Shown here piece by piece: positions 20,612 to 49,997 of a DNA stretch of 56,190 nucleotides. The notes below the pieces were generated by a model. It was not told where the DNA came from, searched no databases, and saw nothing but the letters and a program-made list of their open reading frames with translations. The position numbers and the translations under genes are program-made. Source of the stretch: a virus. The stretch is taken from positions 1-56,190 of the IMG/VR virus record IMGVR_UViG_3300047476_001428; one strand, given 5' to 3'. Each line of letters begins with the position of its first letter. Position 1 is the first letter of the stretch.

Positions 20612-21100
20612 TTAGTAAACCAAGATACAACGGTCCATTTGTAATGTAACATCTAATCCTGCTAATTTGTCATCACTATATGCTACGTTGTCCCAAGCAG
20701 CTTTAGTAATCATACATCCGTCCAAAATCCATTTTTCTACAACAACACCAGTTGGGTCTAACATTTCAAGGTCAACATTTTTCTTGTAACCTGCAGCATA
20801 ACCCATACGACCTGTAACAGATTCAGCATGTAAACGAACCCACTCCATAAGAGCCTGAGTCGCTGATGGACCAATTGGGTCACGGAATTTAACAGAAATT
20901 GGGTTCCATTTGAAACGACCTGCTACGAATGTAGAAGTATTCAAAAATTGTATTTCTGTAGAGTTGATGTCAATAGATGGTCTTCCTGATGATTCTACGA
21001 ACCATTCATTAATACCTAAAGTTGTGTCGAATCTCAATATAAATCGGTTCGCTCTTTTTGGTTCGTAAGGAACCGGCATTTTCATTAATAAATCAGCCAT
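20612..21100 (-). CDS. Tail tube protein, T4 gp19-like
   Basis: A 162-residue protein, almost identical in length to T4 gp19 (163). It stacks as hexameric rings to form the inner tube under the sheath. Family features are an N-terminal PYEPKRANRFILRF strand, then a VESSGRPSIDI loop, a KWNPISVKFRDPIGPSA strand-loop and an MEWVRLHAESVTGRMGYAAGYK helix/loop, followed by a C-terminal strand pair. It lies downstream of the sheath and HAD genes and upstream of a strong terminator, so it is probably one of the most highly expressed genes here. A composite upstream element containing both TATTTAT and T4-type TATAAATA precedes it. Confidence 0.92.
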   Translation of the reverse strand: MADLLMKMPVPYEPKRANRFILRFDTTLGINEWFVESSGRPSIDINSTEIQFLNTSTFVAGRFKWNPISVKFRDPIGPSATQALMEWVRLHAESVTGRMGYAAGYKKNVDLEMLDPTGVVVEKWILDGCMITKAAWDNVAYSDDKLAGLDVTLQMDRCILVY

Positions 21101-21203: not shown

Positions 21204-22040
21204 TTAGTATCTAGTTTTAGCTCCTTTACCAGTATAGTAATTCTTTAACATTGGTTCATCTTCAAAACTCTTCTTCATTACTTCTACATTTCTAATATCA
21301 TCATCTGAAAAACCAATACTAGGAACAAAGTTATTTTTCACATCATTTTTAAGATATAATTTTTTACCTAATTGTTTTGCTTGAGATTTTACATAAGAAA
21401 TAAATTCCCTCATTGCGTCCACTTTTAATTGTTCAGGATTTCCCGCTCCTGTTGGGTCAAGAAAACTAACAGGGTAATATTTGTTCATATCTAAATAATC
21501 TTTTATTAACTCGACATCAGATTTGTCTTCCATACCTGCAATGTCTCTGTATTTTCTAAGATTCTTTAATAATAATTTTTTATTAATACCTTGATGGTCG
21601 GACACAATTAAATTATAAATCGCATCTTTAAGTGTATTTGGGTTGTGACCACGAGCGGTGATTATTGAAAAAATTGACCCGTTGTTGATTGCTTCCACAA
21701 AATCAGACCAAGCCGGACCGGTTTTTGCTTTCATAGCGTCAATCTTAAATTGTTTGTCACCACCTTCTCTAAAATTTCTATAAGGTTGGTCAGCATACCC
21801 AACAATTTTATGTCCATTATAATCAAACTCTTCTTTACCGATTTGGTGTCTATGTTCCGCAAAATCCTCAGTAGACATTGGAACTTCATTACCTTCTTCA
21901 TCCCTTAAAATAATTTTTGTTGGCATGTACATTAAGTTGTCATCCCAATCAAAAGCGTAATACTTTAAGTCTGGCGTACCAGCATCATCGAAACCTTCAC
22001 GTAACGATGATACTGGATTATTTTTTTTGTTTTTCAACAT
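21204..22040 (-). CDS. HAD-superfamily hydrolase between tube and sheath genes
   Basis: A 278-residue protein with the four-part HAD pattern: DWDDN (nucleophile Asp31 and acid Asp33), IITARGHNP with Thr128 as motif II, a lysine-rich segment KKLLLKNLRKY as a possible motif III, and GFSDDDIRNVE (246-248) as motif IV. HAD enzymes hydrolyse phosphate esters using Mg2+; candidates for the substrate are nucleotides, sugar phosphates or a phosphoprotein, and the sequence does not say which. It starts 6 bases after the sheath stop, so it is made with the sheath, and is followed by a gap with the tube promoter. An enzyme at this spot is unusual; a virion or assembly role is possible. Confidence 0.78.
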   Translation of the reverse strand: MLKNKKNNPVSSLREGFDDAGTPDLKYYAFDWDDNLMYMPTKIILRDEEGNEVPMSTEDFAEHRHQIGKEEFDYNGHKIVGYADQPYRNFREGGDKQFKIDAMKAKTGPAWSDFVEAINNGSIFSIITARGHNPNTLKDAIYNLIVSDHQGINKKLLLKNLRKYRDIAGMEDKSDVELIKDYLDMNKYYPVSFLDPTGAGNPEQLKVDAMREFISYVKSQAKQLGKKLYLKNDVKNNFVPSIGFSDDDIRNVEVMKKSFEDEPMLKNYYTGKGAKTRY

Positions 22041-22046: not shown

Positions 22047-25000
22047 TTAGATGTTTTCAAACGATGCTCCTGTTGGAGTTATTAAGAAATCAATTTCAAT
22101 GAATTCCAACGCTTTTGTTGGTTTCAAATAAATTTTTCCTGTCATTGTATTTCTATCTAAGTCTTCTGGTGAGTTACTTACAGTAACACGGAAGTCGTAT
22201 AAACCTCTGTCTCTTCTAATAGCATCTAAGATAGGGTTAACCGCATCTAAGAAGTCTTGTCTTACTTTAGCGTCGTTTTGTTCAAACAACAATCTTACAG
22301 AAACAGCCGAAATCAACTTACGAGCTTGTAATAACAATCTTCTTACGTTAATTCTGTTTAATGCCGAATCAGCGATTTGAAGTGTTTTGTTACCCCAAAT
22401 TACAGTTCCAACATCAGAGAATGTTGCGATAGGGTTAATTCTACCTTGATACAATGTATCTCTATCTTGTTGTGTAAGTTTCTTACGAGCCTTAACTGAG
22501 TTAACCAAACCTCTTGTGTAACCCGCAGTTGCAAACCATGGGAATGAAATGTTATCTGTCAAAGCCAAGTTTCTACAAACTTCACCTGTTGGTGGTAAGT
22601 AGATTTGTGTGTTATTAACAGTATCTCTTACCAAAATCCAAGGGTAATAAGTTGCTGTGTAGTTAGAGTCAATTCCTGTATTTACTAAGTTGTCAACAGC
22701 TTCTGTTGGGTAAATGAAGTTTCCTGTCTGAACAGGGATATTCAAGTTACAATCAGGTGTTGTACAGATGTAGATAGAATCAGCTCTGTCATATGTAACC
22801 ATTGAGATAGCATCTTCAACTAAGTTTGAGTTATTCACATAATCAATACCTGGTGTTGCAAATACGTTAATAGTAGTTGCTTCAGGGTTAGCGAATGTAC
22901 TAATACCTAACAAGTATGCGTAGTAATCAGTGTTTGCATAATCAGTGAAGTTATCGATTGCGATTGGTTTGAATGCTCCCCAACCAGTTGCGTTTGGATA
23001 TCTTGTTGTTGAACATGCACCTTTTTGGTAACCCGCTCCACCTAATTGGAATCTATCAGTGTTTGTTCTTTTTTCTGTGTATATGTCCCAACCATCAAAA
23101 CCTTTTTGAACCAAGAATGTGAATTTTCTTGCTTGGATTTGGTAGTAAGGGTTTGCTGGAGTTTCAGGGTCAGATTGGAACGATGCATCACCAACTTCAA
23201 ACGCTGATGTTCCTGATGTTGGACCAAATGCGATTGTTACAACAGTCGCTCCTGAATCCATGTGGAAACCTTTTGTTTGATAGTTCCAAGGTAACGCAGG
23301 GTCTTCAACACACAAGTCGTTTGGTTTTTGAACACCTTTGAACATAAAGAAGTCAGGGTCATAACCAATTTGTGATGAGATACCTAAGTAAGATGTTCTT
23401 ACTCTATCACCAGCACTTTGTACTGTGTTGTCACCAGCTGTTGTACCAAATGGTGGGTTATAAATAATTTCACTTGGGTAGTTATATGATGTCTTGTAAA
23501 CTGGGAATGGAGGAGTTGCGTTAGCGTATTCTCTAATTTCATATCCTTCAAATCCACAAGGTAATGAATCAGGGTTAGCATCCTCATTCATTTCCAACAT
23601 GATGTATTTTGAATTCAAAGCGTATTCACCATCAGCAGTACCAACTTTAACAGCGATGTAACTATTAGAAGCTGGGTCTAAACTACAGTTAGTGTATTTT
23701 TCAATAACTACAGGGTTTGAGTCAGTATCGTAGAATGAACGAACAGCCAAATCAAATGTACCATTAGTAAATGAGATATTTTGAATTGAAATTTTAATTT
23801 GTAAGTTTGCCGAGTCACCGTCACAAACAGTGATTATCTTAAACAATCTTTGTACTGTATTACCACGAAGTTGAGAAACAACCCAAGGTGATTCAGCAGA
23901 TTTGTAAGGAACCAAATAATCAGCAATAGTATCAGTAGTTGAAGTATATCTTACACCTGGTAAAGCCACGAAGTCAGAATTAATACCTCTGATGTAACCT
24001 TTGTTATAAGAGTAATTTAATAAGTTAGAGAATTTTTCTTCAACAAACAAAGGAACTTCAGTTCTTAATTTACCAAAGTTTGTTTGACCAAACACTTTAG
24101 TAATGTAGTTTGTATCTGAAGTATTCAATGAAGTCATGAAACTAAAGTCAGTTCCATCTGCAGTTTGACCTGAAATCGCAAATTCCGCAAATGGGTTTTG
24201 TGTAATAGCCGAATAAGTTCCTGAGTTGTTAATGATAACACTAGTTAAACCTGTTACTGTGTAATCAGGACCTGTATTAGCACCAGCATATGTTGCAATA
24301 CCTCTTGAACGTAGTGTAGCTGCAACCATATTATTGTATTCTGTATATGCTGTTCCTGAGTAGTAATAAACCGAACCTGAAGCAGTTCCTGAGAAATTTC
24401 CTGAACCTAAATCAGTTAATGATGAAACTACTGAGAACCAAGAGTAACCTGTATAAGCATCTCCTGATGAAATGTTGAAGTTTGCATAGTACCAAGCGTC
24501 GTTAGTTGATGCTGAATAGTTAGCATCCGCGGTAGTTACTCCCGAAACTTGATATACGTTTGTTGATGCTGTATACGCTGATACACTTGGGGTGATAGCC
24601 GATGAAACAGTACCGTAATAATAAATCGTAGTAGCTGATGTTGCAGAACTTGCGATTACACCACTCAATTCAGCATCAATTTGGTCTCTTAAAGTACTAG
24701 TACTTCCGTCAAATTGAGTAAATGGTACATCCAAATTATTTTGAATGATACTTGGGAATGATGTTAAGAAGTTTACAGTACCGCCAGTATTACCCGAGAA
24801 ATTCACTGTATATGCTTGAGGTGAACCACTGAAACCTATTGTTCCTGGGTCAACGTTTGCAATTGTGGTAATTGACCAAGATGGACCCGCATCGTAACCC
24901 GAAAGACCCAAAACTCTGGTAACAAACAATTGGTTAGATTGTTGTAGATAAGATTTAGCAATGTACGCCAATTCGTACTTTGGAATTTGTGTGTTCACAA

Positions 25001-25199
25001 ATTTTTCTGGGATTGTACCTCCGAAATATGCTTCAAAGTCACTGTAGTTTGTGATGAAGATAGGTTCAAAAGCTGGACCTGTTTGTGTTTCACCCACAAC
25101 ACCCAAAGTTGTAACACCGACACTTTGAGCAACATAACTTAAGTCATATTCAGATGTATAGACACCTGGAGAAACGAAAATTTTATTTGATACTGCCAT
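22047..25199 (-). CDS. Contractile tail sheath protein, T4 gp18-like
   Basis: A 1050-residue sheath subunit. The N-terminus has the family phrase SPGVYTSEYDLSYVAQSVGVTTLGVVG, cited here by its key parts (SPGVY, an ES/EY-D loop, GVVGET-x-GPA), and the C-terminal 150 residues hold the conserved polymerisation domain with FEQNDAKVRQDFLDAVNP, a YDFRVTVSNS strand and a KIYLKPTKALEFIEIDF strand. Between them lies a long Thr/Ser/Tyr-rich region (about 150-600), so this subunit is much larger than T4 gp18 (659) and probably carries outward-facing insertions. On contraction it drives the tube through the envelope. It heads a transcript with the HAD and tube genes. Confidence 0.93.
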   Translation of the reverse strand: MAVSNKIFVSPGVYTSEYDLSYVAQSVGVTTLGVVGETQTGPAFEPIFITNYSDFEAYFGGTIPEKFVNTQIPKYELAYIAKSYLQQSNQLFVTRVLGLSGYDAGPSWSITTIANVDPGTIGFSGSPQAYTVNFSGNTGGTVNFLTSFPSIIQNNLDVPFTQFDGSTSTLRDQIDAELSGVIASSATSATTIYYYGTVSSAITPSVSAYTASTNVYQVSGVTTADANYSASTNDAWYYANFNISSGDAYTGYSWFSVVSSLTDLGSGNFSGTASGSVYYYSGTAYTEYNNMVAATLRSRGIATYAGANTGPDYTVTGLTSVIINNSGTYSAITQNPFAEFAISGQTADGTDFSFMTSLNTSDTNYITKVFGQTNFGKLRTEVPLFVEEKFSNLLNYSYNKGYIRGINSDFVALPGVRYTSTTDTIADYLVPYKSAESPWVVSQLRGNTVQRLFKIITVCDGDSANLQIKISIQNISFTNGTFDLAVRSFYDTDSNPVVIEKYTNCSLDPASNSYIAVKVGTADGEYALNSKYIMLEMNEDANPDSLPCGFEGYEIREYANATPPFPVYKTSYNYPSEIIYNPPFGTTAGDNTVQSAGDRVRTSYLGISSQIGYDPDFFMFKGVQKPNDLCVEDPALPWNYQTKGFHMDSGATVVTIAFGPTSGTSAFEVGDASFQSDPETPANPYYQIQARKFTFLVQKGFDGWDIYTEKRTNTDRFQLGGAGYQKGACSTTRYPNATGWGAFKPIAIDNFTDYANTDYYAYLLGISTFANPEATTINVFATPGIDYVNNSNLVEDAISMVTYDRADSIYICTTPDCNLNIPVQTGNFIYPTEAVDNLVNTGIDSNYTATYYPWILVRDTVNNTQIYLPPTGEVCRNLALTDNISFPWFATAGYTRGLVNSVKARKKLTQQDRDTLYQGRINPIATFSDVGTVIWGNKTLQIADSALNRINVRRLLLQARKLISAVSVRLLFEQNDAKVRQDFLDAVNPILDAIRRDRGLYDFRVTVSNSPEDLDRNTMTGKIYLKPTKALEFIEIDFLITPTGASFENI

Positions 25200-25474: not shown

Positions 25475-26559
25475 ATGTATGGAATTGCAGGTGGTTCCAA
25501 AACAATTTGATAACTTAATGATGCAACCTGACCTGGTGTTGTCTTAGTAATTTCAAAACGAAGTGTATCGTTGGTATTAACTTGTATTACAGGAACATCA
25601 GTTCCGTAAAAATCAAAAGTTAAAGAACCTTGTGGTTTAATATAAACATCAATACCATTTTCATTATCAATATTGGTATTACCCATTAAAGAAAAATTTC
25701 CTGTATAATCGGCAATAATATCTTTTGTCGTTTCAGACACACCAAAGTTCAAGGTATAATCAAATGATGATGGATTTTCGGGGAACTTTCTTCTTTTTGG
25801 TGGTGGAATATTTCCAACAACCTCAAAAGTATTGAAAACTCTTGATACCGCAGGTGCCACTTCAAATTCGTCAGGGTCTAATAAAAACCCTAACATTGTG
25901 AATTCATAATTTTGAATGTAAAATCTTCTTTTTTCCACCTCAATAACAGATTCATCTGAAATGTTACCCATGATGATTGGAATATAATGACCCTCAATTT
26001 TTCTATAGGCTTGACGAGATGCAAAAGTTTGAATCACATTTTTATTGAACTCGTTTAACTCTCTCATTCTATTACAAACAATTTTAACATTGTAAGTAAT
26101 ATCAACAGGAACAGGTTGTGGAATTTTGTAGATATCCATACCTTTAATGTTTCCATTCCATGTTGGGACTGCGGCATAATAAAACTCTTTTCTATTTGGA
26201 ATATTCCAAAGAAGTGCCGGATTACTACCGTACTTTACTTCAGGTTGACGGACAACAGTTATGAATGGTGGATTTGGATTACCATTCAAATCATTAAAGT
26301 CCCAAGTTTCAGTAAACTGAGACCAGTTCTGTGTTGTAATAATAATATCAACCATTGGAATTATCTTTCCTGCAACAATAGTTTCCAAATCTTCTTTTAC
26401 AAAATCTAAAAACCCCCTATCTAATTCAGGGTGTAATAATTGTTTTGGTAAATAAGTTCCGTCTTCTGTAATATAACTAAGCAATTGTTCTCTTCTCTGA
26501 AGAAGTGTCTTTTCAGGTGTAAGATTAATTGTTGGTATAACTTTTTTAGGATAACCCAT
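25471..26559 (-). CDS. Tail sheath stabiliser/completion-like protein (gp15 position)
   Basis: A 362-residue structural protein. The first 230 residues carry a hydrophobic PVDITYNVKIVCNRMRELNEFNK segment, a FASRQAYRKIEGHYIPI strand-loop and an RRFYIQNYEFTMLGFLLDPDEFE stretch, which resemble tail terminator/sheath-stabiliser proteins of T4-like phages. The C-terminal 120 residues are a beta-rich extension (YTLNFGVSE ... YQIVLEPP) not present in T4 gp15 (272 residues). It lies between the gp14-like neck gene, whose stop overlaps its ATG (TAATG), and the sheath gene, the expected place for a tail terminator. Assignment to gp15 is by position and resemblance. Confidence 0.58.
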   Translation of the reverse strand: MGYPKKVIPTINLTPEKTLLQRREQLLSYITEDGTYLPKQLLHPELDRGFLDFVKEDLETIVAGKIIPMVDIIITTQNWSQFTETWDFNDLNGNPNPPFITVVRQPEVKYGSNPALLWNIPNRKEFYYAAVPTWNGNIKGMDIYKIPQPVPVDITYNVKIVCNRMRELNEFNKNVIQTFASRQAYRKIEGHYIPIIMGNISDESVIEVEKRRFYIQNYEFTMLGFLLDPDEFEVAPAVSRVFNTFEVVGNIPPPKRRKFPENPSSFDYTLNFGVSETTKDIIADYTGNFSLMGNTNIDNENGIDVYIKPQGSLTFDFYGTDVPVIQVNTNDTLRFEITKTTPGQVASLSYQIVLEPPAIPYI

Positions 26560-27074
26560 TAGATTCCATTAAATTCGTTTTCACTTACAGGTGTTGCAAT
26601 GTATGAAACATAAAATGGTTTATAACCACCATAAGTGTGTTTATTGTCAAAGTTAGGAACACCAGCATTTACCACTGAATAATATCTAACTTGTGATTCT
26701 GTTATCCAATAACCAATATAGTCACCCAATTTAATATTCATTTCCAAATCAATTAAATCTTGGTTATATATTGCAAATTTCAAATTACCAGGTTCGTTCT
26801 GTAATACCTTAGAACTACCCAAGAATCTTTCTTCAGGTTGTAAAATCTGAACGTAGGCTTTTACAGATACTGGGGGTAAGAATTGAATACCTTGTGGTAA
26901 TACCTCACCATAAACATCATCGTTAACAGTTTTAGTTCTATCAACACGATAAACTACAATAGTGAAATTCATATCACCGTCTAACCATTCTCTACCCATA
27001 GAGATGTCTAAGTTGTAATCTTCACCACCGAAGAATTTACCTAATCTTGTTATTGGAACTAATTTTTGTGACAT
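26559..27074 (-). CDS. Neck/head-completion-like protein (gp14 type, tentative)
   Basis: A 171-residue beta-rich protein. Notable strands are a VYGEVLPQGIQFLPPVSVKAYVQI block, a GNLKFAIYNQDLIDLEMNIKLGDYIGYW block and a VRYYSVVNAG strand, a pattern (pro-rich loop, GDYI and a Y-x-V near the end) found in neck or head-completion proteins. It is the first gene of the minus-strand tail block and overlaps the next gene by one base, which supports a head-tail junction role. T4 gp14 is 256 residues, so the match in size is imperfect and the name is tentative. A TATTTAT element lies 15 bases before the ATG. Confidence 0.52.
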   Translation of the reverse strand: MSQKLVPITRLGKFFGGEDYNLDISMGREWLDGDMNFTIVVYRVDRTKTVNDDVYGEVLPQGIQFLPPVSVKAYVQILQPEERFLGSSKVLQNEPGNLKFAIYNQDLIDLEMNIKLGDYIGYWITESQVRYYSVVNAGVPNFDNKHTYGGYKPFYVSYIATPVSENEFNGI

Positions 27075-27123: not shown

Positions 27124-28893
27124 TTGGAAAATGTTGAGAACATAAGTAATGTATCAGTCTTGGAAAGGAAGGCTCTTGACTTGTTGGAAACCTACTCAGG
27201 CGCCAACAATTACATTATGCGCTTAAGACAAAAACAAATTGATAATAAAAAGTTTTATCCAACAAGAGCTCAAGCCGAATATATTGTAAATTACTTTAAT
27301 ACAACACCAAAGGTTGCCAAGAAGTGGGTTGATTTGGATGAATATTTTTCCAAAAAAATTTCTGACGAAAAATTATTTACCAAAATTGCGACCAAAGTTT
27401 ATGTTGAAAAACTTTTGATTGAAAAAGATACTTCTTACCATATTTGGGGGAAATTCTTTGATAGTCAGGAACTTCATGACTTTTGGTTACCTAAAGTTGC
27501 GTTACTTAAAAACAATAAGGTTGAGAACGTTGTTATTGATTACGAGAAGTATTCACACCGTCCACCACTTGACCACCAAAAAGAAGCAATTCAAAAATTG
27601 GTGGAGAATAAAAAATTCATTTTGGCTGATGATATGGGTTTGGGTAAAACTACTTCAACCATTATTGCCGCTTTGGAGACGGGAGCTAAGAAAGTTTTAA
27701 TCATTTGTCCAGCATCTTTGAAGATTAACTGGCAACGTGAGATTGAAAACTATTCTCAGAGAACGACAAGTATTATTGAAGGAAAAAAATGGGACGATGC
27801 CGACTTTGTAATTATCAATTATGATATTATTAAAAATTTCCATGACGATAAAAAGAAAGACGCATCAACAATCGTTAATTCAAAGTTTGATTTAGTAATT
27901 GTTGATGAAGCACATTATATTCAGAACTCACAAGCACAACGAACCAAGTTAATTAATGACATTGGAAAGAAAGTTGACCGTGTTTGGTTGTTGACTGGTA
28001 CTCCAATCACATCAAGACCAATAAACTACTACAACTTATTGAACTTAATTGATTCACCTGTTGCTCAGAATTGGATGGCATTTGTAAAAAGGTATTGTAA
28101 CGGGTTTCAGTTCCAAGCAGGAAGACGTAAAATATGGAATGTTAGTGGAGCATCCAATTTGGAAGAGTTAAGAGACCGTACCGCACCACTTGTCCTTCGT
28201 AGATTAAAGGAGAACGTATTGGATTTACCTGAAAAAATAATTACACCCGTTTATTTGAGGTTGAAATCAAAAGAGTATGAAGAACTTATGGGTGAATACT
28301 ACGATTGGTACGATAAAAGTGGTGAGGCAGATTCATTAACCCTTCAATTTACCAAGTTAACCAAAGTTCGTCAGGTAATTGCCGATGAAAAAACAAAGGC
28401 AACCATCGAATTATGTGAAAATATTATCGAACAAGGTAAAAAAGTTATTGTGTTTACTAACTTTACAAAAAGTTTAGAACTTATCTTGGAACATTTTGGT
28501 AAAAAAGCAGTAAGACTTGACGGACAAATGTCTCAAAAAGAAAGACAATTATCTGTTGACCGTTTTCAGACTGAAGAGGATGTTATGGTTTTCGTTGGAA
28601 ACATTAAAGCTGCTGGTGTTGGTATCACATTGACTGCCGCTGAAGCCGTTGTGATGAATGACTTATCGTTTTTACCTTCTGACCACTCACAAGCTGAAGA
28701 CCGTAGTTACCGTTATGGACAAAAAAATAACGTATTAGTTTATTACCCGATTTTTGACAATACAGTTGAAGGAATTATCTACGACATACTCAAAAAGAAG
28801 AAAAACATCTTTGAGACAATCATGGGTGACAATGCAAATTCAATGGATTCTGTCGAAGAAATCATGAATTTAATTAATGAAATGAGAAGATAA
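27124..28893 (+). CDS. SNF2-family helicase/translocase
   Basis: A 589-residue SF2 enzyme that uses ATP to move on or remodel double-stranded or branched DNA. The N-terminal 145 residues are a lysine-rich helical region. Then come LADDMGLGKTT (Walker A, 168-177), VIICPASLKINW-type motif Ia, VIVDEAH (DEAH 261-264), LLTGTPI (motif III), and in lobe two a VRLDGQMS segment, GVGITLTAA and QAEDRSYRYGQ (motif VI of SNF2 proteins). It resembles SMARCAL1/HepA-type annealing helicases more than T4 UvsW. The reading frame opens at TTG 27124, with a stop 18 bases upstream and no in-frame ATG until residue 31; translation from TTG or a later codon is uncertain. It may rescue forks or counter host defences. 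Confidence 0.88.
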   Translation: MENVENISNVSVLERKALDLLETYSGANNYIMRLRQKQIDNKKFYPTRAQAEYIVNYFNTTPKVAKKWVDLDEYFSKKISDEKLFTKIATKVYVEKLLIEKDTSYHIWGKFFDSQELHDFWLPKVALLKNNKVENVVIDYEKYSHRPPLDHQKEAIQKLVENKKFILADDMGLGKTTSTIIAALETGAKKVLIICPASLKINWQREIENYSQRTTSIIEGKKWDDADFVIINYDIIKNFHDDKKKDASTIVNSKFDLVIVDEAHYIQNSQAQRTKLINDIGKKVDRVWLLTGTPITSRPINYYNLLNLIDSPVAQNWMAFVKRYCNGFQFQAGRRKIWNVSGASNLEELRDRTAPLVLRRLKENVLDLPEKIITPVYLRLKSKEYEELMGEYYDWYDKSGEADSLTLQFTKLTKVRQVIADEKTKATIELCENIIEQGKKVIVFTNFTKSLELILEHFGKKAVRLDGQMSQKERQLSVDRFQTEEDVMVFVGNIKAAGVGITLTAAEAVVMNDLSFLPSDHSQAEDRSYRYGQKNNVLVYYPIFDNTVEGIIYDILKKKKNIFETIMGDNANSMDSVEEIMNLINEMRR

Positions 28894-28896: not shown

Positions 28897-28939
28897 AAGT
28901 TCGGCTTATTTATAATTAATAAAAACAAAAGCCGAACTT
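28897..28939 (+). promoter_or_regulatory. Long-arm hairpin with a promoter-like loop abutting the SOD-fusion start
   Basis: An 11-base perfect inverted repeat, AAGTTCGGCTT (28897-28907) and AAGCCGAACTT (28929-28939), encloses a 21-base AT-rich loop holding a TATTTAT element (28907-28913). The right arm ends at the base before the ATG at 28940. In a read-through transcript this hairpin could end transcription or hide the start codon; a transcript starting inside the loop would lack the left arm and be free to translate. Confidence 0.5.
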
Positions 28940-30493
28940 ATGAAAAATCTCAAGAACAGAATAGAAGTTTTGGAAGAACAATTAGAGAAGAAAGAACAAA
29001 AAAGACAACAAGATGTTAAACATAGAAAAGTTGTTGAAGAAGCCCAAAAAATTAGTGTAGAAAAATTACCTTACGCATATTCGGCACTTAAACAGTTCAT
29101 TGACCCCGAGACAATGAACGTACATTACAACAAACATTACAAAGGTTATGTAGATAAGTTGAACGCCGCATTAGGTGATAAAGACTACGGTGACTTAAGT
29201 TTGGAAGAAATTGTAAAAACAATTGAACGATTCAACAAGTTTATTAGAAACCAAGCGGGTGGAGCATTTAACCACCAATTGTTTTGGAAAATGTTATCTC
29301 CAAAGACAATGACACCAAAAGGTTTAATATTAAAGAAACTTAATCAAAACTTTGGTTCATTCGCTGCGTTCAAGAAAAAATTTGATGGTCAAGCAAAAGA
29401 CAGATTTGGTTCAGGATGGTGTTGGTTAGTATTAACCAAACGTGGAACCTTAAAAATTATGACCACACCAAATCAAGACAATCCATTAATGGATGTTGTT
29501 GAACAAGGTGGTTATCCATTGTTGGGATTAGACTTATGGGAACATGCCTATTACTTAAGATATAGAAATAGAAAAGAAGAATATATCAAAAACTTTTGGA
29601 AAGTTGTGAATTGGGACTACGTTGAAGACGTATTGAAAAAACAACTTGACAAGACTATTAAAGAGAGTGAACAAGCAAAAGAATTCTTAACCGAAGCTGT
29701 TAAAAGTGAACCTTGTTCATCTGCCGACAGAATGGCATCAAAACAATTCTTCAATCAAAACCGTGATGCGTTGAATGTTTACAAAAACGCAATTATGCAA
29801 ATCTTAAAAGAGGTATTCCCTGAAAGATATTATGGTAGAGATGAATACTCACCAGGAACAATGTCGGGAATTTACAACTTGGAAGGTGAAGGTAGGTCAA
29901 TTATCAATTATTTGAATACAAATTATTCAGCATTTTGTGTGTTGAAAAAAGACTTAAACAAATATCTTGAAAAGATTAATAAACCTTTAATCGACTTCAA
30001 CAATAAAACTCCAAAAGAACAAGTTGATGAAATGGTTAGGATGTTAAAGGTTCTTAATCATGTTAAATTTAGAGTATTTAATACAGAATCAGAAACACTT
30101 AAGACAATGATGAGTGTCATGGGTGCGTCATCTAAAAAAGGTGGACAAACTGAAGATGCTGTTGTTGTTAAATTGAAAAAACAATTTGGTGATGACAATG
30201 TGATTCAAATTGGTGAACTTGGTTCCAAAGAAGATATGTTAAAAGGTGTTGATGTTAAAATCATTGTTGATGGTAAAGAACATACCGCACAAGTTAAACC
30301 ATTTAGTCATATTACAAAAACAGAAAGTGATATGTACAAAGTGGATGGAACAGCAAATGTTAAAAAATACCAAACTGATTGGATGATTTTTATGAAAAAT
30401 CTTGGTGACATGGTCATCTTTGATAATAAGAATTCAAGAATATTTGACGGAGTTTATTACTTTCCGATTGACGCTAAATTGTATCAATTGTAA
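28940..30493 (+). CDS. Mn/Fe superoxide dismutase fused to a PD-(D/E)XK-like domain
   Basis: A 517-residue fusion. Residues 1-36 form a charged coiled coil. Residues about 38-235 are a full Mn/Fe superoxide dismutase: metal ligands His62 (VHYNKHY), His112 (FNHQLFW), Asp198 and His202 (GLDLWEHAYYL), gateway His66/Tyr70, and the Mn-type AGG and NQDNPLM (Gln179) signatures. It should convert superoxide to peroxide and oxygen. Residues about 240-390 are helical and unrecognised. The last 125 residues contain QTEDAVV (Glu405), GVDVKI (Asp438) and AQVKPF (Gln451, Lys453), a spacing like PD-(D/E)XK nucleases with Gln in the third position. The nuclease reading is inference. The gene lies between SNF2 helicase and neck protein genes and has no signal peptide. 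Confidence 0.85.
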   Translation: MKNLKNRIEVLEEQLEKKEQKRQQDVKHRKVVEEAQKISVEKLPYAYSALKQFIDPETMNVHYNKHYKGYVDKLNAALGDKDYGDLSLEEIVKTIERFNKFIRNQAGGAFNHQLFWKMLSPKTMTPKGLILKKLNQNFGSFAAFKKKFDGQAKDRFGSGWCWLVLTKRGTLKIMTTPNQDNPLMDVVEQGGYPLLGLDLWEHAYYLRYRNRKEEYIKNFWKVVNWDYVEDVLKKQLDKTIKESEQAKEFLTEAVKSEPCSSADRMASKQFFNQNRDALNVYKNAIMQILKEVFPERYYGRDEYSPGTMSGIYNLEGEGRSIINYLNTNYSAFCVLKKDLNKYLEKINKPLIDFNNKTPKEQVDEMVRMLKVLNHVKFRVFNTESETLKTMMSVMGASSKKGGQTEDAVVVKLKKQFGDDNVIQIGELGSKEDMLKGVDVKIIVDGKEHTAQVKPFSHITKTESDMYKVDGTANVKKYQTDWMIFMKNLGDMVIFDNKNSRIFDGVYYFPIDAKLYQL

Positions 30494-30520: not shown

Positions 30521-31636
30521 ATGGCAGTTATTGCAGAACCAGAAAGAACCAGACTTTATAATCGTATCCTAAATCAATTGGGAGCTCCTTTAAGAGCAGT
30601 TGAGTTGGATATGGAACAGATGGATTCCTTAATGGAATTATCTATTGGTGACTACACACAATACATCTATGATTGGTTGATTGAAAGTCAATGGACTAGT
30701 TTGTATGGTATGGATTTGGCAACTCAATCTGTCGCAAATGCTTTAGTTAGAAGAACGTTAGATTGGGAAACTCAATATACCTACGCATATTCTAAAATTG
30801 TAGGTTTACAAAACTCAGGTCCTTGGGTTTTGAAAAAAGACTTTTTTAAGTTAGAACAAAATGTTCAAATATATGAAATTCCTGCAGGTCGTGAAATTAA
30901 CGAATTGCTTTGGTACTCACCCGCAGAAGAAAATAGTCTTCTTTATGACCCTTGGTCATTTGGTGGATTTGGTGGACCTGGTATTGGGGGTGCTGGTGGA
31001 TACGCACAACCTGGATGGGGTGGTGGTGGATACTTTATGTTCTCGGCTTATGATGCACTTGCACGTATGCAGGACGTAAACATTAAAAGAAGAATCATCC
31101 AACCTGATGTTAGTTATCGTGTAACGGCTTTACCAAATGGTAAAAGAGCCATCATGTTATACAACACACCAGGTGGTAAGTTTGACTTTGGTAATAATGA
31201 ATTAATGAGAGGTCAGGTTTGGTATTGGTATTATGATACCACAGACGCTGACCGTGACCAATGTCTAAAAGATAATCCTGATATCGTAAAATTACCTTCC
31301 GATATCCCATTAGATGCTCTTAACTGGCAGGACTTAAATGACCCTGCACAACAATGGGTAAGAAGATGGTTTACAGCCTATTGTAAAGAAACTTTAGCAA
31401 GAGTTAGAGGTAAGTTCAGTGGTAACTTAAAAACACCTGATAGTGAACTTATTATGGATTATCAGTCATTATCGACTGAGGCTAAAGATGAAAAAGTAAC
31501 TTTGGTTACTGAACTTAAAGAAAGGTTGGAACGTCTTCGTCCTGAAAAACAAATGGAAAAAGAAGCGTTAATTGCTGAAAATTTGAACAAACAGTTGAAA
31601 TTTAGAGCAATGCCTATACCAATTACAGTAGTATAA
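30521..31636 (+). CDS. Neck protein, gp13-like
   Basis: A 371-residue structural protein likely to sit at the head-tail connector. The N-terminus (RLYNRILNQLGAPLRAVELDMEQMDSLMELSI) resembles neck/adaptor proteins. Residues about 145-170 are an extreme glycine-rich loop (GGFGGPGIGGAGG, then PGWGGGG). The C-terminal third has WVRRWFTAYCKETLARVRGKFSG, then PDSELIMDYQSL and a long charged helix, the pattern of T4-type gp13 proteins, which close the packaged head before tail joining. T4 gp13 is 309 residues; the glycine-rich loop explains part of the extra length. It is followed one base later by a small gene. Confidence 0.65.
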   Translation: MAVIAEPERTRLYNRILNQLGAPLRAVELDMEQMDSLMELSIGDYTQYIYDWLIESQWTSLYGMDLATQSVANALVRRTLDWETQYTYAYSKIVGLQNSGPWVLKKDFFKLEQNVQIYEIPAGREINELLWYSPAEENSLLYDPWSFGGFGGPGIGGAGGYAQPGWGGGGYFMFSAYDALARMQDVNIKRRIIQPDVSYRVTALPNGKRAIMLYNTPGGKFDFGNNELMRGQVWYWYYDTTDADRDQCLKDNPDIVKLPSDIPLDALNWQDLNDPAQQWVRRWFTAYCKETLARVRGKFSGNLKTPDSELIMDYQSLSTEAKDEKVTLVTELKERLERLRPEKQMEKEALIAENLNKQLKFRAMPIPITVV

Positions 31637-34862: not shown

Positions 34863-35243
34863 TCAACAACAGGGTGATTTTACTACAAAACTTTCTTGGA
34901 TATAAATTGTCAACTCTTCTCTGATTGGTAAAATCAAATCACCAGTATCATTATGGATTAAAAACTGACCTGTATACACACCGACTTGGTTTGTATCCCT
35001 TTCAGTAAATCTATAATAAACATAATATTCAGGTAAGGCATTTACGTCAAGATTTGTTAAAGTTGTAATATAACATGGTTTGGCCACAATTTTTGGAATA
35101 CCTGTAGCACTATTAATCATAGTAAATGTGATTGTAGCGGTTTCTAATGAATCCATAAATTGTTGGTATTCACTTCTACCATCCTTAACCACTTGCATCT
35201 TCAAAAGTGGTAATGTCGCATTTTTCTTGATGTAAAAATCCAT
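34863..35243 (-). CDS. BppU-like N-terminal-domain protein (baseplate/fibre)
   Basis: A 126-residue beta-sandwich protein. It has the layout of the N-terminal domain of baseplate upper proteins (BppU): an opening FYIKKNATLPLLKMQVVKD strand, a TITFTMINSATGIPKIVAK strand-turn, YYVYYRFTERDTNQVGVYTGQF and a closing PIREELTIYI. Such domains attach receptor-binding proteins to the baseplate. Here it stands alone, without the receptor-binding C-terminus, and ends CC. It is the last structural gene of the fibre/glycosyltransferase block. A TATTTAT element lies 12 bases before its ATG. Confidence 0.6.
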   Translation of the reverse strand: MDFYIKKNATLPLLKMQVVKDGRSEYQQFMDSLETATITFTMINSATGIPKIVAKPCYITTLTNLDVNALPEYYVYYRFTERDTNQVGVYTGQFLIHNDTGDLILPIREELTIYIQESFVVKSPCC

Positions 35244-35265: not shown

Positions 35266-36939
35266 TTAAGATTCTTTTCTTAATGAACCATCGTAAAATT
35301 CGAACCTATCGTGTTCAGTTGGGGTCATAAGTAGTAGTCCCGGATTGATTTTTCCCTTGATAGTTTCTTGAAAAATAAAACTCATCCATGTCTGTTCAAA
35401 TGGGTGTGCCCATTTTGTTTCTAAGAACATTTTCTTATTACCATGACGGGTTACAACTTGAGGCCAGTTACAATAATAAACCTCACCAGATACAAATGGA
35501 ATACCATTATGTGTCCTTATATGTTTGAATTTTGTTCTTGGAGCATTTGGGTCTTGACCATGAACAGGTAAGTTTGGTTTTTCGGGCCAATGTTCTACTC
35601 TAAAGTTTTGAGGAACATTATACCAAGACCATTGGGTACCATTATCACCATAAAACTCACTATAATTAAACTTTAAGAAATCAAAATGATTCTTTTTTGT
35701 TATTTCTAATGTGTTCTTATATAAATTTGGAACGTATCTATTAAATCCATTTCTACATACTTCTCCTTTTTGGGGGTAAAAGAACATATCATCCTCAAAA
35801 AAGAAATGAAAATCAAAACCATTTTCTTCCGCATGTTCTGCAACCCATTGTCTACCACCACAAATACCTAAATTGTCTTTCTTAATATGTTCAAAACCAT
35901 ATTCCTTACAAAGTTCCGAGTATTTCTCGGTAGTTGATAAATCGGATGAGTTATCTAATAAAAACTTTTTTGGTTTATCCAAAAAATCTTTATCATAGAG
36001 GGTCATCGAATTAAGTAATGTTTCGAATTGTTTTGGACTATTAAATGTGATTACATACAAAGCCGTATTATCAAGGTTTAAGTCATCGTTAATTGGAATA
36101 AAACCTTGTTTGTTTTTTCGTTCTAACGTGTCATTTTTTAAGTCCTCAAAAAACTTACCAAACAAACCGTTAGAGTCAATTTCAAAATAATCAATTACGT
36201 CTGAATGTTTGTAACACATAATTGAAAATATTGACTCCTCAGTCCCCATAAGTCCTCGAGACAACGTAGATGATAACAAGTTGTAATAAATCCCGTTAAT
36301 ATCACCTATTGTGTGTTTTGGACCACCAAAGAACCCTCCACGAGCAACCATTTCTACCTTTTCACCTACAATTCCATTAATCTGATTAAAATTAAATCCG
36401 TGAATCTCATTTTCGGCTTGGTATGGGAAACAAACAAAAGAAAATTTATTAATATAGTTTGGTAATTTATCTAAAACTTTATCGTGTGTAAAATAACCAG
36501 GGTGAACGGTATTTGTTAATCCGGCATCAATCCAAAACATCATATCTGAATTAAATGGGTCCATAATTTTGGCATCATTTAACAAAAATACCTTTGACAT
36601 AACCAAAGGATTGTACATTTCTAATCTTGCCTGTGTTGATTGTGGTAACCAACCTGCTTGATTATACCAATCAGGGTTTGTTCTGATTGTTTGTATTTTG
36701 TCATAAAATTCATTTTTGAACCATTCTTGACTACGAGAGATAAACATTGTATTATCTTTATTTCTCCTTTCAAAAACGAATGATTCTAAATCAGAATCAC
36801 CAAAAATTATCATTGGATTATCAACCTTTAATAGTTGGTCAAACTTATCCAAATAATGTTGGAATGAACGAGACCAACCTTCTTGTAGTTCATCACGTTT
36901 AATATTCCAAAGTCCCGTTACCAATGTTATTTTAGACAT
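35266..36939 (-). CDS. HtrL/YibB-type domain fused to a GT2-like glycosyltransferase
   Basis: A 557-residue two-domain protein. Residues 1-265 resemble the HtrL/YibB/WlaTC family: TLVTGLWNIKR, MIIFGDSD, YNPLVMSK, FWIDAG (Asp138) and GGFFGG. Residues about 290-557 are a separate GT-A-like domain with LYVITFNSPKQFETLL, LGICGGRQWVAEHA and FFEDDMFF (Glu382-Asp384), the last a DxD-like metal and nucleotide-sugar site. It would transfer sugars from nucleotide donors. It overlaps the previous gene by 8 bases and closes a seven-gene operon of glycosyltransferase-type genes. Acceptor unknown. Confidence 0.72.
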   Translation of the reverse strand: MSKITLVTGLWNIKRDELQEGWSRSFQHYLDKFDQLLKVDNPMIIFGDSDLESFVFERRNKDNTMFISRSQEWFKNEFYDKIQTIRTNPDWYNQAGWLPQSTQARLEMYNPLVMSKVFLLNDAKIMDPFNSDMMFWIDAGLTNTVHPGYFTHDKVLDKLPNYINKFSFVCFPYQAENEIHGFNFNQINGIVGEKVEMVARGGFFGGPKHTIGDINGIYYNLLSSTLSRGLMGTEESIFSIMCYKHSDVIDYFEIDSNGLFGKFFEDLKNDTLERKNKQGFIPINDDLNLDNTALYVITFNSPKQFETLLNSMTLYDKDFLDKPKKFLLDNSSDLSTTEKYSELCKEYGFEHIKKDNLGICGGRQWVAEHAEENGFDFHFFFEDDMFFYPQKGEVCRNGFNRYVPNLYKNTLEITKKNHFDFLKFNYSEFYGDNGTQWSWYNVPQNFRVEHWPEKPNLPVHGQDPNAPRTKFKHIRTHNGIPFVSGEVYYCNWPQVVTRHGNKKMFLETKWAHPFEQTWMSFIFQETIKGKINPGLLLMTPTEHDRFEFYDGSLRKES

Positions 36940-37798
36940 TTAATTCTTCTAATATTTTGTAAAAACTTTTATTCTGTTCAAAAAACTCTTTGGTTCCTTC
37001 TTTATGATTATCTTCGTGCCACCAAATATCGAAGTTTAATGTCTTAAACCAATCTTTATGGTTTTGATACATTAATGACATGTAATGCTCTTCATAAAAC
37101 AATTTCTTTTGTTCAGGAATAATAAGTCTAACATAATCATCAAATTGTTTAACTACTTTATCCCATAGTTCAGTTTTTCCACCAAAGAAACCACCAATTA
37201 CATGGACACTATTGTCATATGTTGTATAGAACTTAGGGTCAACAGTACCTTCCCAAAAATTCCTTGAGTTTTCTTTTGCAACCATTACAAATTTATCACC
37301 AGCATACTCAATCAAATTATCTAAAAATTTATCATTGAATAATGATGCTTCATAATAAAATCTATAACCTGGTGCTGATAAATATTTGTCAGGAATTAAA
37401 CCTGTGTGTGATAAACCTGCATCAAACCAAAAATAATAGTCGTAAGATTTATCTTCGTTTTTGAACCAAGAAAACTTGGAGTATTGGATTTCATAACACC
37501 TATCAGATTTTTTTATTTGTTCAATATCCTTAACACCATTAATTAATTCGGCATACTCATTTTGAGACAACTCAAATAAAACAAACTTTAATCTATCTTC
37601 AGAAATATTATGTGTTTTATAAAAAAAATCTTTTAAGTCATCAACCTCTCTTTCAGAAGTATAACAGATAAAATCTGCTTGTGTCATCTTTAATAAAGAC
37701 AACAAACTAAATCTATAATGGTCTTTTCTACCAGGTCTTCCACCTAATTCAGAACCATAAAGGTCTGAATAAATACTTGTCATTATTTTAACTCTCAT
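36932..37798 (-). CDS. HtrL/YibB-family putative glycosyltransferase
   Basis: A 288-residue protein related in layout to the N-terminal domain of its downstream neighbour: MTSIYSDLYG near the start, CYTSERE, FWFDAGLSH (Asp126 in the DAG motif) and VIGGFFGGKTELW. The DAG motif and GGFFGG pair are the family hallmarks. HtrL/YibB proteins occur in LPS or surface-polysaccharide gene clusters; transferase activity is presumed from their GT-A-like fold. It overlaps its neighbours by 8 and 11 bases, so all are translated together. The two paralogous domains side by side suggest a duplication in this operon. Confidence 0.68.
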   Translation of the reverse strand: MRVKIMTSIYSDLYGSELGGRPGRKDHYRFSLLSLLKMTQADFICYTSEREVDDLKDFFYKTHNISEDRLKFVLFELSQNEYAELINGVKDIEQIKKSDRCYEIQYSKFSWFKNEDKSYDYYFWFDAGLSHTGLIPDKYLSAPGYRFYYEASLFNDKFLDNLIEYAGDKFVMVAKENSRNFWEGTVDPKFYTTYDNSVHVIGGFFGGKTELWDKVVKQFDDYVRLIIPEQKKLFYEEHYMSLMYQNHKDWFKTLNFDIWWHEDNHKEGTKEFFEQNKSFYKILEELNV

Positions 37799-38516
37799 TG
37801 TTGTTTCTTAGTTCTATACATTTATCGTAGTCCATATATTTTCCATCAATTTTATCGGGAAAATATACATTCCAATTATATGTCATTACATAAAAATTTG
37901 AATCGATTGTTTGGTTAATATCAGAATAATCTCGTTTTTGAACCACTAACGGTAATTTAGCCGAAAAAGATTGTATATTAGGATAGACTGCCCTATCTAA
38001 AAATTCATCAATTGGAATTTGCATATGACTATTCTCAATAATGTCATTGGTATTCCATTTAACAATATATTCACAAGCCTTTCTTGTTAGAATAAATCCT
38101 GAAGTACCAAAAATACCTCTATGTCTATTAAGGTCTTTTGGTGGTAATGTTGTTAAATCAATTAAGTTTTCTGAGAATCTATTTAACGGTCTATGAATTG
38201 ATGGTGCCAAATGAAAAAAATACCATTCATTATTATTCAACTCTTCTTCAATCATTGGAATAAGATTTTTGGTATATGGCATAAAGAAAATGTCATCTTC
38301 AAATACCATGGCATATTCATATCCTCCATCTAAAATCATTTGTGCAATTTTTTGATGGGAATAAGCACAACCCTCATAACTATTTGTATCAATTGCGTTG
38401 AACCTTTCAAAAGTCCAACCCATATATTCAAATTCTTTTGTAACATCTTTTAACCTATCAGGCCTTCTTTCAAGATTGACTACAAATTTTGGTATTTCAT
38501 TAAAATTAATTTTCAT
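37788..38516 (-). CDS. Glycosyltransferase family 25-type
   Basis: A 242-residue enzyme of the LPS-type GT25 family (LgtB/LpsA relatives). Signatures are FVVNLERRPDRLKDV (11-25), CAYSHQKIAQMI (the conserved SH after the first strands), VFEDDIFF (71-78; Asp74/Asp75 as DxD-like site) and GTSGFILTRKACEYI. Members add galactose or related sugars to LPS or, in other organisms, to collagen-type proteins. It sits fourth from the downstream end in the overlapping operon, with 11-base overlaps on both sides. Whether it acts on a virion protein, host LPS or DNA cannot be told from sequence. Confidence 0.8.
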   Translation of the reverse strand: MKINFNEIPKFVVNLERRPDRLKDVTKEFEYMGWTFERFNAIDTNSYEGCAYSHQKIAQMILDGGYEYAMVFEDDIFFMPYTKNLIPMIEEELNNNEWYFFHLAPSIHRPLNRFSENLIDLTTLPPKDLNRHRGIFGTSGFILTRKACEYIVKWNTNDIIENSHMQIPIDEFLDRAVYPNIQSFSAKLPLVVQKRDYSDINQTIDSNFYVMTYNWNVYFPDKIDGKYMDYDKCIELRNNNES

Positions 38517-39267
38517 ATATTAAATTTTGTCTGTTTTCATATCCTCGTCTATGAACAAAAATAACCGCATTATTTTCCATTGCGGTTTGATAATTTCTAT
38601 TTGTGTCAGTCCAATAACCAAAAATATCGATGTTTTGTTTTGGACAAGAGTATCTTGACGCTAAAATTGATAAAACACTTTGGTCATTTCTATGGTTTTC
38701 TTCCTGACCAATAGTACATCCTTGTAAAGCGTATTGATAAGCCTTTTCAAATAAATGGTCGAATTTACCACCTTTTTTATATCCTATAATACCAGCTGAT
38801 AGTTGAGTGTCATTCATTTCAGATTCAGTTGCTTCCATAATAGTTGAACATGTTTTATGAGTATAGTTTCTATTCAAATGAATATCACCAACCATAAAAA
38901 TTTCATCTTTTTCAATTAATTCATAAATGACACACATATTGTTAATTGGTGCTGCACCAGCATCTAACCAAAAAATGTTTTCAGCAAAATTCTTACAATA
39001 GGTTAAACAGAATAATTTATACATATAACTTTTTGGTACCAAAGAATGTTCGTGACTATCAATATAATCTTGTGGATAATCAACAACACTAACATTCTTC
39101 AAAGATTTCAAAGTGTTAATTTCTGAAATATCTAAACCCAAATTAAATACGTAAATTTGTTCTACACAATCAAGACCAAAAGTGTGTACCCCACTAATCA
39201 ATGTTAATAAAGAATAGTAGTAGGCACTATTTGCTGTTGTAACTAAAATATTCTTATAAATTTGCAT
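38506..39267 (-). CDS. GT8-like putative glycosyltransferase
   Basis: A 253-residue GT-A-like protein. It has an opening ILVTTANSAYYYSLLTLISGVHTFG (strand plus helix), IYVFNLGLDISE, a lysine/leucine segment SYMYKLFCL, FWLDAGAAPI (Asp in a DAG motif in place of DxD), and a late NDQSVLSILASRYSC segment with NIDIFGYW, as in GT8 and related families that read acceptor positions in surface glycans. Sugar and acceptor are unknown. It overlaps the next gene by 11 bases and the preceding GT10-like gene by 14. Confidence 0.65.
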   Translation of the reverse strand: MQIYKNILVTTANSAYYYSLLTLISGVHTFGLDCVEQIYVFNLGLDISEINTLKSLKNVSVVDYPQDYIDSHEHSLVPKSYMYKLFCLTYCKNFAENIFWLDAGAAPINNMCVIYELIEKDEIFMVGDIHLNRNYTHKTCSTIMEATESEMNDTQLSAGIIGYKKGGKFDHLFEKAYQYALQGCTIGQEENHRNDQSVLSILASRYSCPKQNIDIFGYWTDTNRNYQTAMENNAVIFVHRRGYENRQNLIYEN

Positions 39268-40063
39268 TCAAAAAATTATTAATGATTATTTCAGGGTGCA
39301 TATATTGTTTGGCAATATCAAAATTCTTTTTAATCGATTCCATTTTTGATTGGTAAAGTTCATCTGTTAGTTTTTCCAAGATGTTTGGTAAATCTTCATC
39401 ACCCTCAAAGTGTATAATACCGTTTTCATCAAAATAATCGTTCACCGATTTTGAACCAACATAGATTGGAATGGTACCTGATAAGAAACAATCAAGTAAT
39501 TTTTCGGTGAAATACCCATTTTCAATACTATTTTCAATAACGATTGAGAACTTATAATCTTTTAACGATTCGATTTTATATTCAATAGGTTTTTCACATC
39601 CTGTTCCATAGAAATCAACACGAGTATCATCTTTTAATCTATCGTAAACACGGAATCTCATTCTGTGATATGGGTTCCATTGTTTCCATGAAAAAACACA
39701 ACTAACCAACTTACTTTTATCGTGAATACCAATATCTTCAGTTCTTAACCAAGTTCCACCGTGTGGAATAAAAATAATATTTGAGTCATCTGAAACAATA
39801 TTTTTATGATGTGTAAAAATATATTTGAAATTGTCCTTTTCTTTAACAATATTAATATAGTTTTCACCGTTTATAATTGGTGGTTCTATTAACCAAGCAC
39901 AATTTGTTTTACTACCATCCTTTGGTTGAGTAAAACACATTCTATCGACATAGATACCAACATCATATGTTTCAGGTTCACGTTCCCAATTACTTTGGGG
40001 GTCTATATATCTTGATAATCCTGGTTGTCCAACCAAGTTCTCATCAAATAATTTTACATTCAT
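39254..40063 (-). CDS. GT10-type fucosyltransferase-like enzyme
   Basis: A 269-residue GT-B enzyme. The C-terminal half has the hallmark of alpha-1,3/1,4-fucosyltransferases: YKFSIVIENSIENGYFTEKL, followed by DCFLSGTIPIYVGS (about 170-205), where the Glu, Asn, Tyr and Thr-Glu-Lys bind GDP-fucose. Upstream is a divergent acceptor half with CAWLIEPP and IFIPHGGTW. It would transfer fucose or a related GDP-sugar to a glycan. Phage GT10 homologues are uncommon outside large genomes. It overlaps the genes on each side by 20 and 14 bases. Confidence 0.78.
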   Translation of the reverse strand: MNVKLFDENLVGQPGLSRYIDPQSNWEREPETYDVGIYVDRMCFTQPKDGSKTNCAWLIEPPIINGENYINIVKEKDNFKYIFTHHKNIVSDDSNIIFIPHGGTWLRTEDIGIHDKSKLVSCVFSWKQWNPYHRMRFRVYDRLKDDTRVDFYGTGCEKPIEYKIESLKDYKFSIVIENSIENGYFTEKLLDCFLSGTIPIYVGSKSVNDYFDENGIIHFEGDEDLPNILEKLTDELYQSKMESIKKNFDIAKQYMHPEIIINNFLNANL

Positions 40064-40802
40064 TTTTTTGTTCCATTAAATAAATTAAATTGTTTATTTG
40101 TTGTTTGTATTGATTATAAGGTCTCAATGAGTGACAGTCGTAATAGTATTCTTCTAAAACTAAATTAAAATCATGTGAACCCCAATTACCTCTATCAATT
40201 CTTTTTGTGGCATAACCAGTTCCAAAACCTCTTTGTAATTTTACAATTTTTTCTCTGTTCGATTGTTCCCATTCAAAAACACACGAACCAAAAAATATTT
40301 CATCAGTGTCCCACCCAAGTCCAAGGGTGTTTAACTTAATAGCAAAATCTTGAAATGATGAATCTATATTCATGATTTCCTTAAATGTTTTACTTGTTGC
40401 TAAATTATAACACATTGGATATCTTTTTTGGTCTTGATATCCGTAAGCGTCTGATGTGTAGATTAATAAACTATCATTACTTACACCTTTTGCATTATCT
40501 ACAAAATATGTTTTTGATAATGGAATCATATCCAAATCAGAAATTAAACAAGTTTTTTCACCAAATAGTGATGATACGTACAATCTAGCAATTTGAGATT
40601 GTAAACCTGTGTTAATACCATCAACTTTTTTGTAACTTACTAAGACATGTTCTTTAGTCTCTTCAAAACTATCTTCATCACCGATGGTAACTAATATTGG
40701 TTTTACACCAATAATTTTGTTCCAACAACCTTTAACTAAATCCCAAAAACCATCATATAATTGATTACCATCGGTAGAAACTATAGCATAGTCAATATTC
40801 AT
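40044..40802 (-). CDS. GT-A-fold putative glycosyltransferase with DLD motif
   Basis: A 252-residue protein with an opening strand DYAIVSTDGNQLYDGFW, an ARLYVSSLFG helix and LISDLDMIPLS, where Asp89-Leu-Asp91 is a clear DxD metal/nucleotide-sugar site. A later WDTDEIFFGSCVFEW segment supplies a further acidic pair and the C-terminus has NWGSHDFNLVLEEYY. Family cannot be named precisely; it is GT-A by layout. It starts 2 bases after the GT60-like gene and overlaps the GT10-like gene by 20 bases, so it is an early member of the operon. Confidence 0.65.
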   Translation of the reverse strand: MNIDYAIVSTDGNQLYDGFWDLVKGCWNKIIGVKPILVTIGDEDSFEETKEHVLVSYKKVDGINTGLQSQIARLYVSSLFGEKTCLISDLDMIPLSKTYFVDNAKGVSNDSLLIYTSDAYGYQDQKRYPMCYNLATSKTFKEIMNIDSSFQDFAIKLNTLGLGWDTDEIFFGSCVFEWEQSNREKIVKLQRGFGTGYATKRIDRGNWGSHDFNLVLEEYYYDCHSLRPYNQYKQQINNLIYLMEQKNECKII

Positions 40803-40804
40803 AA

Positions 40805-48037: not shown

Positions 48038-48053
48038 TACTTTTTTTTATGTG

Positions 48054-49996: not shown

Positions 49997-49997
49997 T

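Follow-up and report, generated by a model that had tools for sequence, protein, structure and literature searches.

A superoxide dismutase domain fused to a predicted PD-(D/E)XK nuclease in large freshwater phages

Layout of the locus

Large freshwater bacterial viruses carry a gene in which a superoxide dismutase (SOD) domain is joined to a predicted nuclease. It is described here from a fragment of 56,190 nucleotides (IMG/VR record IMGVR_UViG_3300047476_001428), which was analyzed at its full length and is called the window. The gene and its surroundings comprise the following features:

27124..28893, plus strand: SNF2-family helicase, upstream neighbor, without a TATTTAT motif upstream
28897..28939, plus strand: hairpin in the gap from helicase stop to fusion start, stem of 11 bp (-15.7 kcal/mol, z -5.8)
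28907..28914, plus strand: late-promoter-like motif TATTTATA, proposed as the fusion gene's own promoter
28940..30493, plus strand: SOD-nuclease fusion gene, 517 aa, ORF boundaries exact
28940..29041, plus strand: N-terminal coiled coil, residues 1-34, ending in V32-E-E34/A35; candidate propeptide
29057..29626, plus strand: Mn-type SOD domain, residues 40-229 (Pfam, PDB, conservation, Foldseek)
29657..29704, plus strand: disordered linker, residues 240-255, holding I240-K-E242/S243 and L250-T-E252/A253; pLDDT <50
29720..30076, plus strand: helical subdomain of the core, residues 261-379, without match to a known family
30092..30490, plus strand: PD-(D/E)XK nuclease fold, residues 385-517, with E405, D438 and Q451-x-K453
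30521..31636, plus strand: neck/head-tail adaptor protein, downstream neighbor (phrog_211, 3e-10), with its own TATTTAT motif

The initial annotation, made from the window alone, had proposed an N-terminal coiled coil and a position beside an SNF2 helicase and a neck gene. Both were found, the coil as a helix over residues 2-36 in the full-length structure model, and the neighbors as the helicase upstream and the neck/head-tail adaptor gene downstream. Three features were not part of that annotation: a helical subdomain of approximately 120 residues that lies between the SOD and the nuclease fold, the conserved LxE sites, and the late-promoter-like motif. As a whole, its interpretation is partly supported. 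Elsewhere in the window, two blocks of glycosyltransferase-like and sugar-modifying genes (35266-42052, minus strand; 48051-56188, plus strand) flank the virion genes and include HtrL_YibB, a match to a TET-associated glycosyltransferase and DAO. Between tail tube and sheath lies a gene for a 278-aa protein (MLKNKKNNPVSSLREGFDDAGTPDLKYYAFDWDDNL...; 21204-22040, minus strand) without Pfam or PHROGs match, of which an FDWDDN stretch resembles the HAD phosphatase motif.

The SOD domain, its origin and its loss

The SOD domain is matched by the Pfam families Sod_Fe_N (1.9e-20) and Sod_Fe_C (2.2e-39), finds MnSODs of the PDB in a sequence search with E = 5e-60, and in the full-length model is matched to MnSODs by Foldseek with E = 4e-17 and a target TM of 0.87, which confirms the fold. 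The residues H62, H112, D198, H202 and Q179, on which the Mn-type assignment had originally been based, are found without exception in the 93 distinct SOD-bearing members of the family, and the same is true of H66, Y70, W160, W162, E201 and Y205. The roles of these residues are those that we assume by analogy to E. coli MnSOD, and Gln179 in the C-terminal half of the domain is taken to point to the Mn type. From its sequence, the domain can be predicted with high confidence to be active as a dismutase.

In the phylogenetic tree the fused SODs form one clade (support 100/99) beside a Bacteroidota-dominated MnSOD group, and therefore the SOD was probably acquired once. The fused SOD is approximately 52% identical to Bacteroidales SODs, and a Bacteroidota host is the most likely donor. 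Five members at the same locus (L090, L160, L165, L169, L171; 278-294 aa) have retained coil, linker and nuclease, and exactly the SOD is missing. They form one clade nested within the SOD-bearing members, with starred branches in the tree that force a second change, which indicates that the SOD was lost once while the nuclease stayed. The contigs of L090, L160, L165, L169 and L173 yielded no second SOD. Since the SOD was lost and the nuclease kept, the family appears to be built around the nuclease, with the SOD as a passenger that is dispensable in some settings. A gene for defense against host ROS as the sole explanation is disfavored by this clade.

The C-terminal core

By sequence, residues 240-517 gave no Pfam, PHROGs or PDB family above noise, also when the family search was repeated with 24 members. 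Weak PDB sequence matches of the core to the SHP2 phosphatase were taken as chance, and no cellular homologs were found in a pattern-limited search. An AF2 model of residues 240-517, built from 49 relatives (pLDDT 88.9), consists of the helical subdomain followed by a helix with E405, a strand, a strand with D438 and a strand with QxK, so that E405, D438, Q451 and K453 are placed on the helix and strands expected for the nuclease fold. The best PDB fold matches of the core model in Foldseek are I-Ssp6803I, Hjc and RecU, where the match to I-Ssp6803I has a probability of 1.00 but a modest E of 5e-3. The likeness to Hjc and RecU is one of fold only, without sequence-level homology or a Pfam or PHROGs match, and the motif is QxK, not ExK. 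The spacing of E405, D438 and Q451-x-K453 had led to the suggestion of a PD-(D/E)XK enzyme, and this suggestion held: the modeled fold is restriction-endonuclease-like, and all homologs retain the E/D/QxK residues. All 98 distinct members have E405 and D438; one of them lacks coverage at 451/453, and the remaining 97 have Q451 and K453. Invariant in the helical subdomain are G310, N323, N326-T-N328, D338 and N340, and also C259 just before it.

The active site variant has a characterized counterpart. In the SPARDA nuclease DREN, which resembles I-Ssp6803I, D..QxK is active, as cleavage is lost with the exchanges D41A and Q60A and reduced with K62A (PMC12205087). It is very likely that the core is a nuclease, and it defines a new predicted PD-(D/E)XK family that neither Pfam nor PHROGs contains. 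Among known phage proteins, the T4 end protector gp2 showed no detectable homology to the core, and T4 gp4 gave an hhalign probability of 0.1%, in a profile comparison of weak power because the gp4 side was a single sequence.

Distribution and paralogs

Relatives of the whole fusion protein are encoded by 199 IMG/VR stretches and the core by at least 476. The family set analyzed comprises 98 distinct members, 93 with and 5 without SOD, all from metagenomic phage contigs; one further locus (L114 4288-5828), in which SOD ORF and core ORF are split, likely by a frameshift in one contig, was left out. One TAA lies inside the stretch matched by the core search in another record (L049, G010; 49071-49895). 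Members reach down to 34-45% identity with both catalytic sets invariant. Of 99 distinct loci, 95 have the order helicase-fusion-neck, and another three end before the neck gene would be visible. UniProt holds A0A6J5L953 of an uncultured Caudovirales phage (501 aa, 35% identity, TMq 0.86), which matches the whole core in structure and is almost certainly a family member; it is annotated only as "superoxide dismutase" and the fusion is not described there. The statement that no standard phage protein has this build thus stands for characterized families, whereas the protein itself is widespread in IMG/VR and has a UniProt homolog.

Outside of this locus, an SOD-less core homolog of 290 aa with the E/D/QxK set is encoded by the 735-kb phage LR756501; a search for relatives of this homolog in IMG/VR gave none. 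Furthermore, two types of paralogs exist, both with the nuclease residues kept. Type 1 has 493 aa with a Cys-rich N-terminus (hhalign probability 96.9, E 1.6e-10; E385/D417/Q426xK428), and type 2 has 359 aa and is encoded by a related phage of 295 kb. The first type and its short forms are located as follows:

L153 455-1933 and L174 435-1919, minus strand: nuclease core behind a Cys-rich (CxxCGW..CHxCGH) domain, second protein type
L090 1474-2007, minus strand, as an example: Cys-rich half alone, short forms present in many relatives

A late-promoter-like motif

The motif TATTTAT stands within 90 nt upstream of the fusion in 90 of 97 distinct members, at a median of 26 nt before the ATG, and a late promoter belonging to the fusion itself is therefore probable. 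In six of the seven members missing it, the motif lies just inside a start codon that was called too early, and these cases are start-codon artefacts. In the window, TATTTAT is located, in gene orientation, 12-48 nt before virion genes, among them those of sheath, tube and neck. The window genes with the motif upstream are:

73-1458, 12809-17713, 17756-19615, 20612-21100, 22047-25199, 26559-27074
28940, 30521, 34863-35243, 42107-43282, 43285-45438, 45485

The first of these encodes a DnaB-like helicase, and the motif is absent before the SNF2 helicase, UvsX and ssDNA-binding genes of the window. In the 80-nt upstream stretches of the window TATTTAT was observed 13 times against a background expectation of 0.8. 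In the 295-kb relative it precedes 84 of 310 genes compared to 30 in reverse orientation, and this orientation is the better control because the upstream DNA is AT-rich. The T4 late promoter TATAAATA gave no directional signal, and it is the reverse-orientation form TATTTATA that is found upstream of genes. Neither 8-mer is enriched across the whole window, so that the signal lies solely in position and orientation. TATTTAT probably serves this phage group as a late promoter that differs from T4 TATAAATA, and judging by the position of the motif only, the fusion is likely to be a late gene. The hairpin overlaps the motif, which starts at the end of the 5' arm, and the 3' arm ends at the fusion ATG. 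As the hairpin is conserved solely among close relatives, it was kept out of the mechanism.

LxE sites and head machinery

The T4 prohead protease gp21 cuts after L/I-x-E (PMC9026906). When the frequency of [LI]xE was scored at each of the 517 positions in 98 members, E252 ranked first (98%), followed by E201, which lies beside the SOD ligand H202, by E242 and by E34. The glutamates E34, E242 and E252 are conserved in 98, 95 and 99% of members, respectively, and the residue two positions before is L/I/V at E34 and E242 and L/I at E252; in some members, that of the window included, the site at E34 is V-x-E. In 97 of 98 members, E252 is followed by G, S, A, Q or T. The flanks of the three glutamates are variable, with a mean conservation of 0.44-0.50, in contrast to conserved LxE in helicase and polymerase controls, which have conserved flanks (0.78-0.87); in the neck control, one of three conserved LxE sites also lies in variable flanks (0.50). 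Moreover, the full-length model has pLDDT <50 only at residues 28-35 and 240-255, just before and just after the SOD, and it is in these two segments that E34, E242 and E252 fall. This is the layout to be expected of a protease-released inner domain, and that the precursor is cut at the linker appears somewhat more probable than that it stays whole. The idea of a redox-linked nuclease is weakened accordingly, as the linker looks built for cutting and one clade has lost the SOD and kept the nuclease.

Of 13 related records, 7 contain a gp21-type prohead protease (PF03420, above cut-off) and 8 a gp23-type capsid protein. The 295-kb related phage (G001) has both, with the protease at 109013-109741. 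The window, being a 56-kb fragment, shows neither capsid gene nor protease, and both were found only in the relatives. The N-terminus of the gp23-like capsid protein reads LINE/A immediately ahead of the segment that corresponds to the mature protein, and the protease genes share the late-promoter-like motif. In the 295-kb phage, paired LxE occur within the first 45 residues of 13 genes versus 2.3 in shuffles, and N-termini such as MKKIIRLTESDLTRIVRRVISEQ and MKIIISESQ recur. LxE near the N-terminus is associated with the late motif (odds 2.6, p = 6e-4). The 359-aa nuclease paralog of the 295-kb phage begins with MGFKFLKILKTIITE followed by N and has the late motif upstream. At approximately 165-197 kb of the same phage (G001; loci L198-L199), a cluster of unrelated small genes has common LxE-bearing N-termini (such as MKIIITESQ, MKKIIRLTESDLxRIVRRVISE and MKNLLNISEEEKNRILEMH), which have the look of propeptides that target many internal head proteins to the capsid. 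The N-terminal coil of the fusion has an LxE-type site at E34, yet is unlike N-termini of the MKIIITESQ type. A WYL-domain protein of the window (47049-47444, plus strand) has a propeptide-like N-terminus, MKLLGSLKSLITE followed by AAS.

Possible roles of the fusion protein

We give about an even chance to the fusion being a late head-associated precursor of two enzymes, which would be cut into SOD and nuclease and packaged. The precursor would be expressed late, beside the neck gene, and its N-terminal coil would bring it into the prohead core, where the prohead protease might cut after E34 and after E242/E252. The resulting SOD of approximately 24 kDa and nuclease of approximately 30 kDa would probably be too large to leave the head, and may be ejected with the phage DNA into the next cell. 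There the nuclease could have host or competing DNA as its target, or it could process the DNA of the phage; the SOD could clear superoxide, be it inside the head or in the cell just infected. Targeting, cutting, packaging, ejection and substrates are all steps that we infer. The complete polyprotein version, in which the prohead protease frees both enzymes inside the capsid and both are delivered with the DNA, has a little less than even odds, and the presence of the fusion product in the virion is, from the sequence features, equally likely and unlikely. A virion-delivered factor, as the initial annotation had suggested, receives indirect support from the late-promoter-like motif, the prohead-protease-type sites and the propeptide-like N-termini of the paralogs, its packaging being a proposed step. 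What counts against the head precursor is the shortness of L/I-x-E, of which the helicase and polymerase controls have conserved copies as well. The helicase neighbor and the Hjc/RecU-like fold are also compatible with a DNA-processing enzyme of the infected cell.

The main competing explanation is an uncut, unpackaged late DNA-processing nuclease with the resolvase or head-completion role of T4 gp49/gp4, whose attached SOD shields DNA or the metal centre from superoxide. It would account for the fold matches to the resolvases Hjc and RecU and to I-Ssp6803I, for the late motif and for the helicase-neck placement in 95 of the 99 loci. Five large related contigs have no RuvC and no endonuclease VII above cut-off, a weak argument because the contigs are incomplete. 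T4 gp4 is a PD-(D/E)XK protein required for head completion (PMC1189080), and it was not found in eight contigs, so that its role may be vacant. However, homology to T4 gp2 or gp4 is not detectable, the paralogs carry propeptide-like N-termini, and the conserved LxE in the disordered linker is given no role, and we regard this explanation as possible but on the unlikely side. It is improbable that the gene serves as an intracellular antioxidant for an oxidatively stressed host, with the nuclease core as carrier or DNA tether for the SOD. Every SOD active-site residue is invariant, and other jumbo phages have stand-alone SODs (the PA5oct group, Vibrio phage 2.275.O), but these are not close relatives, the nuclease residues are no less invariant, the late motif points to expression during assembly, and the SOD-loss clade kept the nuclease without a second SOD in those contigs. 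Least probable is a purely structural role, with the SOD as dimerizing scaffold and the PD-(D/E)XK core as DNA-binding head or neck protein, neither of them enzymatic: the fusion adjoins the neck gene in the same orientation, but both catalytic sets are fully invariant down to 34-45% identity and the D..QxK variant is catalytic in DREN (PMC12205087).

SODs are packed in the particles of some giant eukaryotic viruses (PMC9405923), and the open PMC papers searched contain no description of a phage that packs or injects an SOD. If the packaged precursor is true, it would give the first known case of a bacterial virus that packs and injects an antioxidant enzyme, and the enzyme would join a large group of internal proteins that are trimmed by protease in these phages. 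If the cleavage model holds, superoxide would be a hazard for these phages no later than at DNA entry, and the LxE grammar would make the injected proteome of uncultured huge phages readable from sequence. Moreover, the nuclease family is carried by hundreds of metagenomic phage contigs, where it is masked by the annotation "superoxide dismutase".

Comparison with known systems

The SOD resembles Bacteroidota MnSODs such as that of Sphingobacterium T2 (6gsb/6gsc) over the whole domain, in metal ligands, second-sphere residues and the Mn-type Gln179, and is unlike bacterial MnSODs in being joined to a coiled coil and a nuclease core and in forming its own clade. It shares with the SODs of the PA5oct group and of Vibrio phage 2.275.O that a member of the Fe/Mn SOD family is encoded by a jumbo phage; the latter are, however, only approximately 28-30% identical, unfused and do not adjoin virion genes. 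The nuclease core has the core fold of I-Ssp6803I and the D..QxK active site of DREN (D41/Q60/K62), but it has no detected sequence similarity to either, carries an extra N-terminal helical subdomain and is encoded by a probable phage late gene without intron or Argonaute partner. With T4 gp4 it has in common that a PD-(D/E)XK protein is encoded next to virion genes, whereas gp4 consists of 150 aa with neither SOD nor helical subdomain, and profile homology is undetectable. The T4 internal head proteins IPI-IPIII and Alt, which gp21 processes, are similar in being products of late genes with L/I-x-E sites, and a gp21-like protease is present in relatives of the window. In contrast to these, the N-terminus of the fusion has no T4-type targeting sequence and its packaging is a prediction, and the precursor would consist of two ready enzymes with the sites flanking the inner domain.
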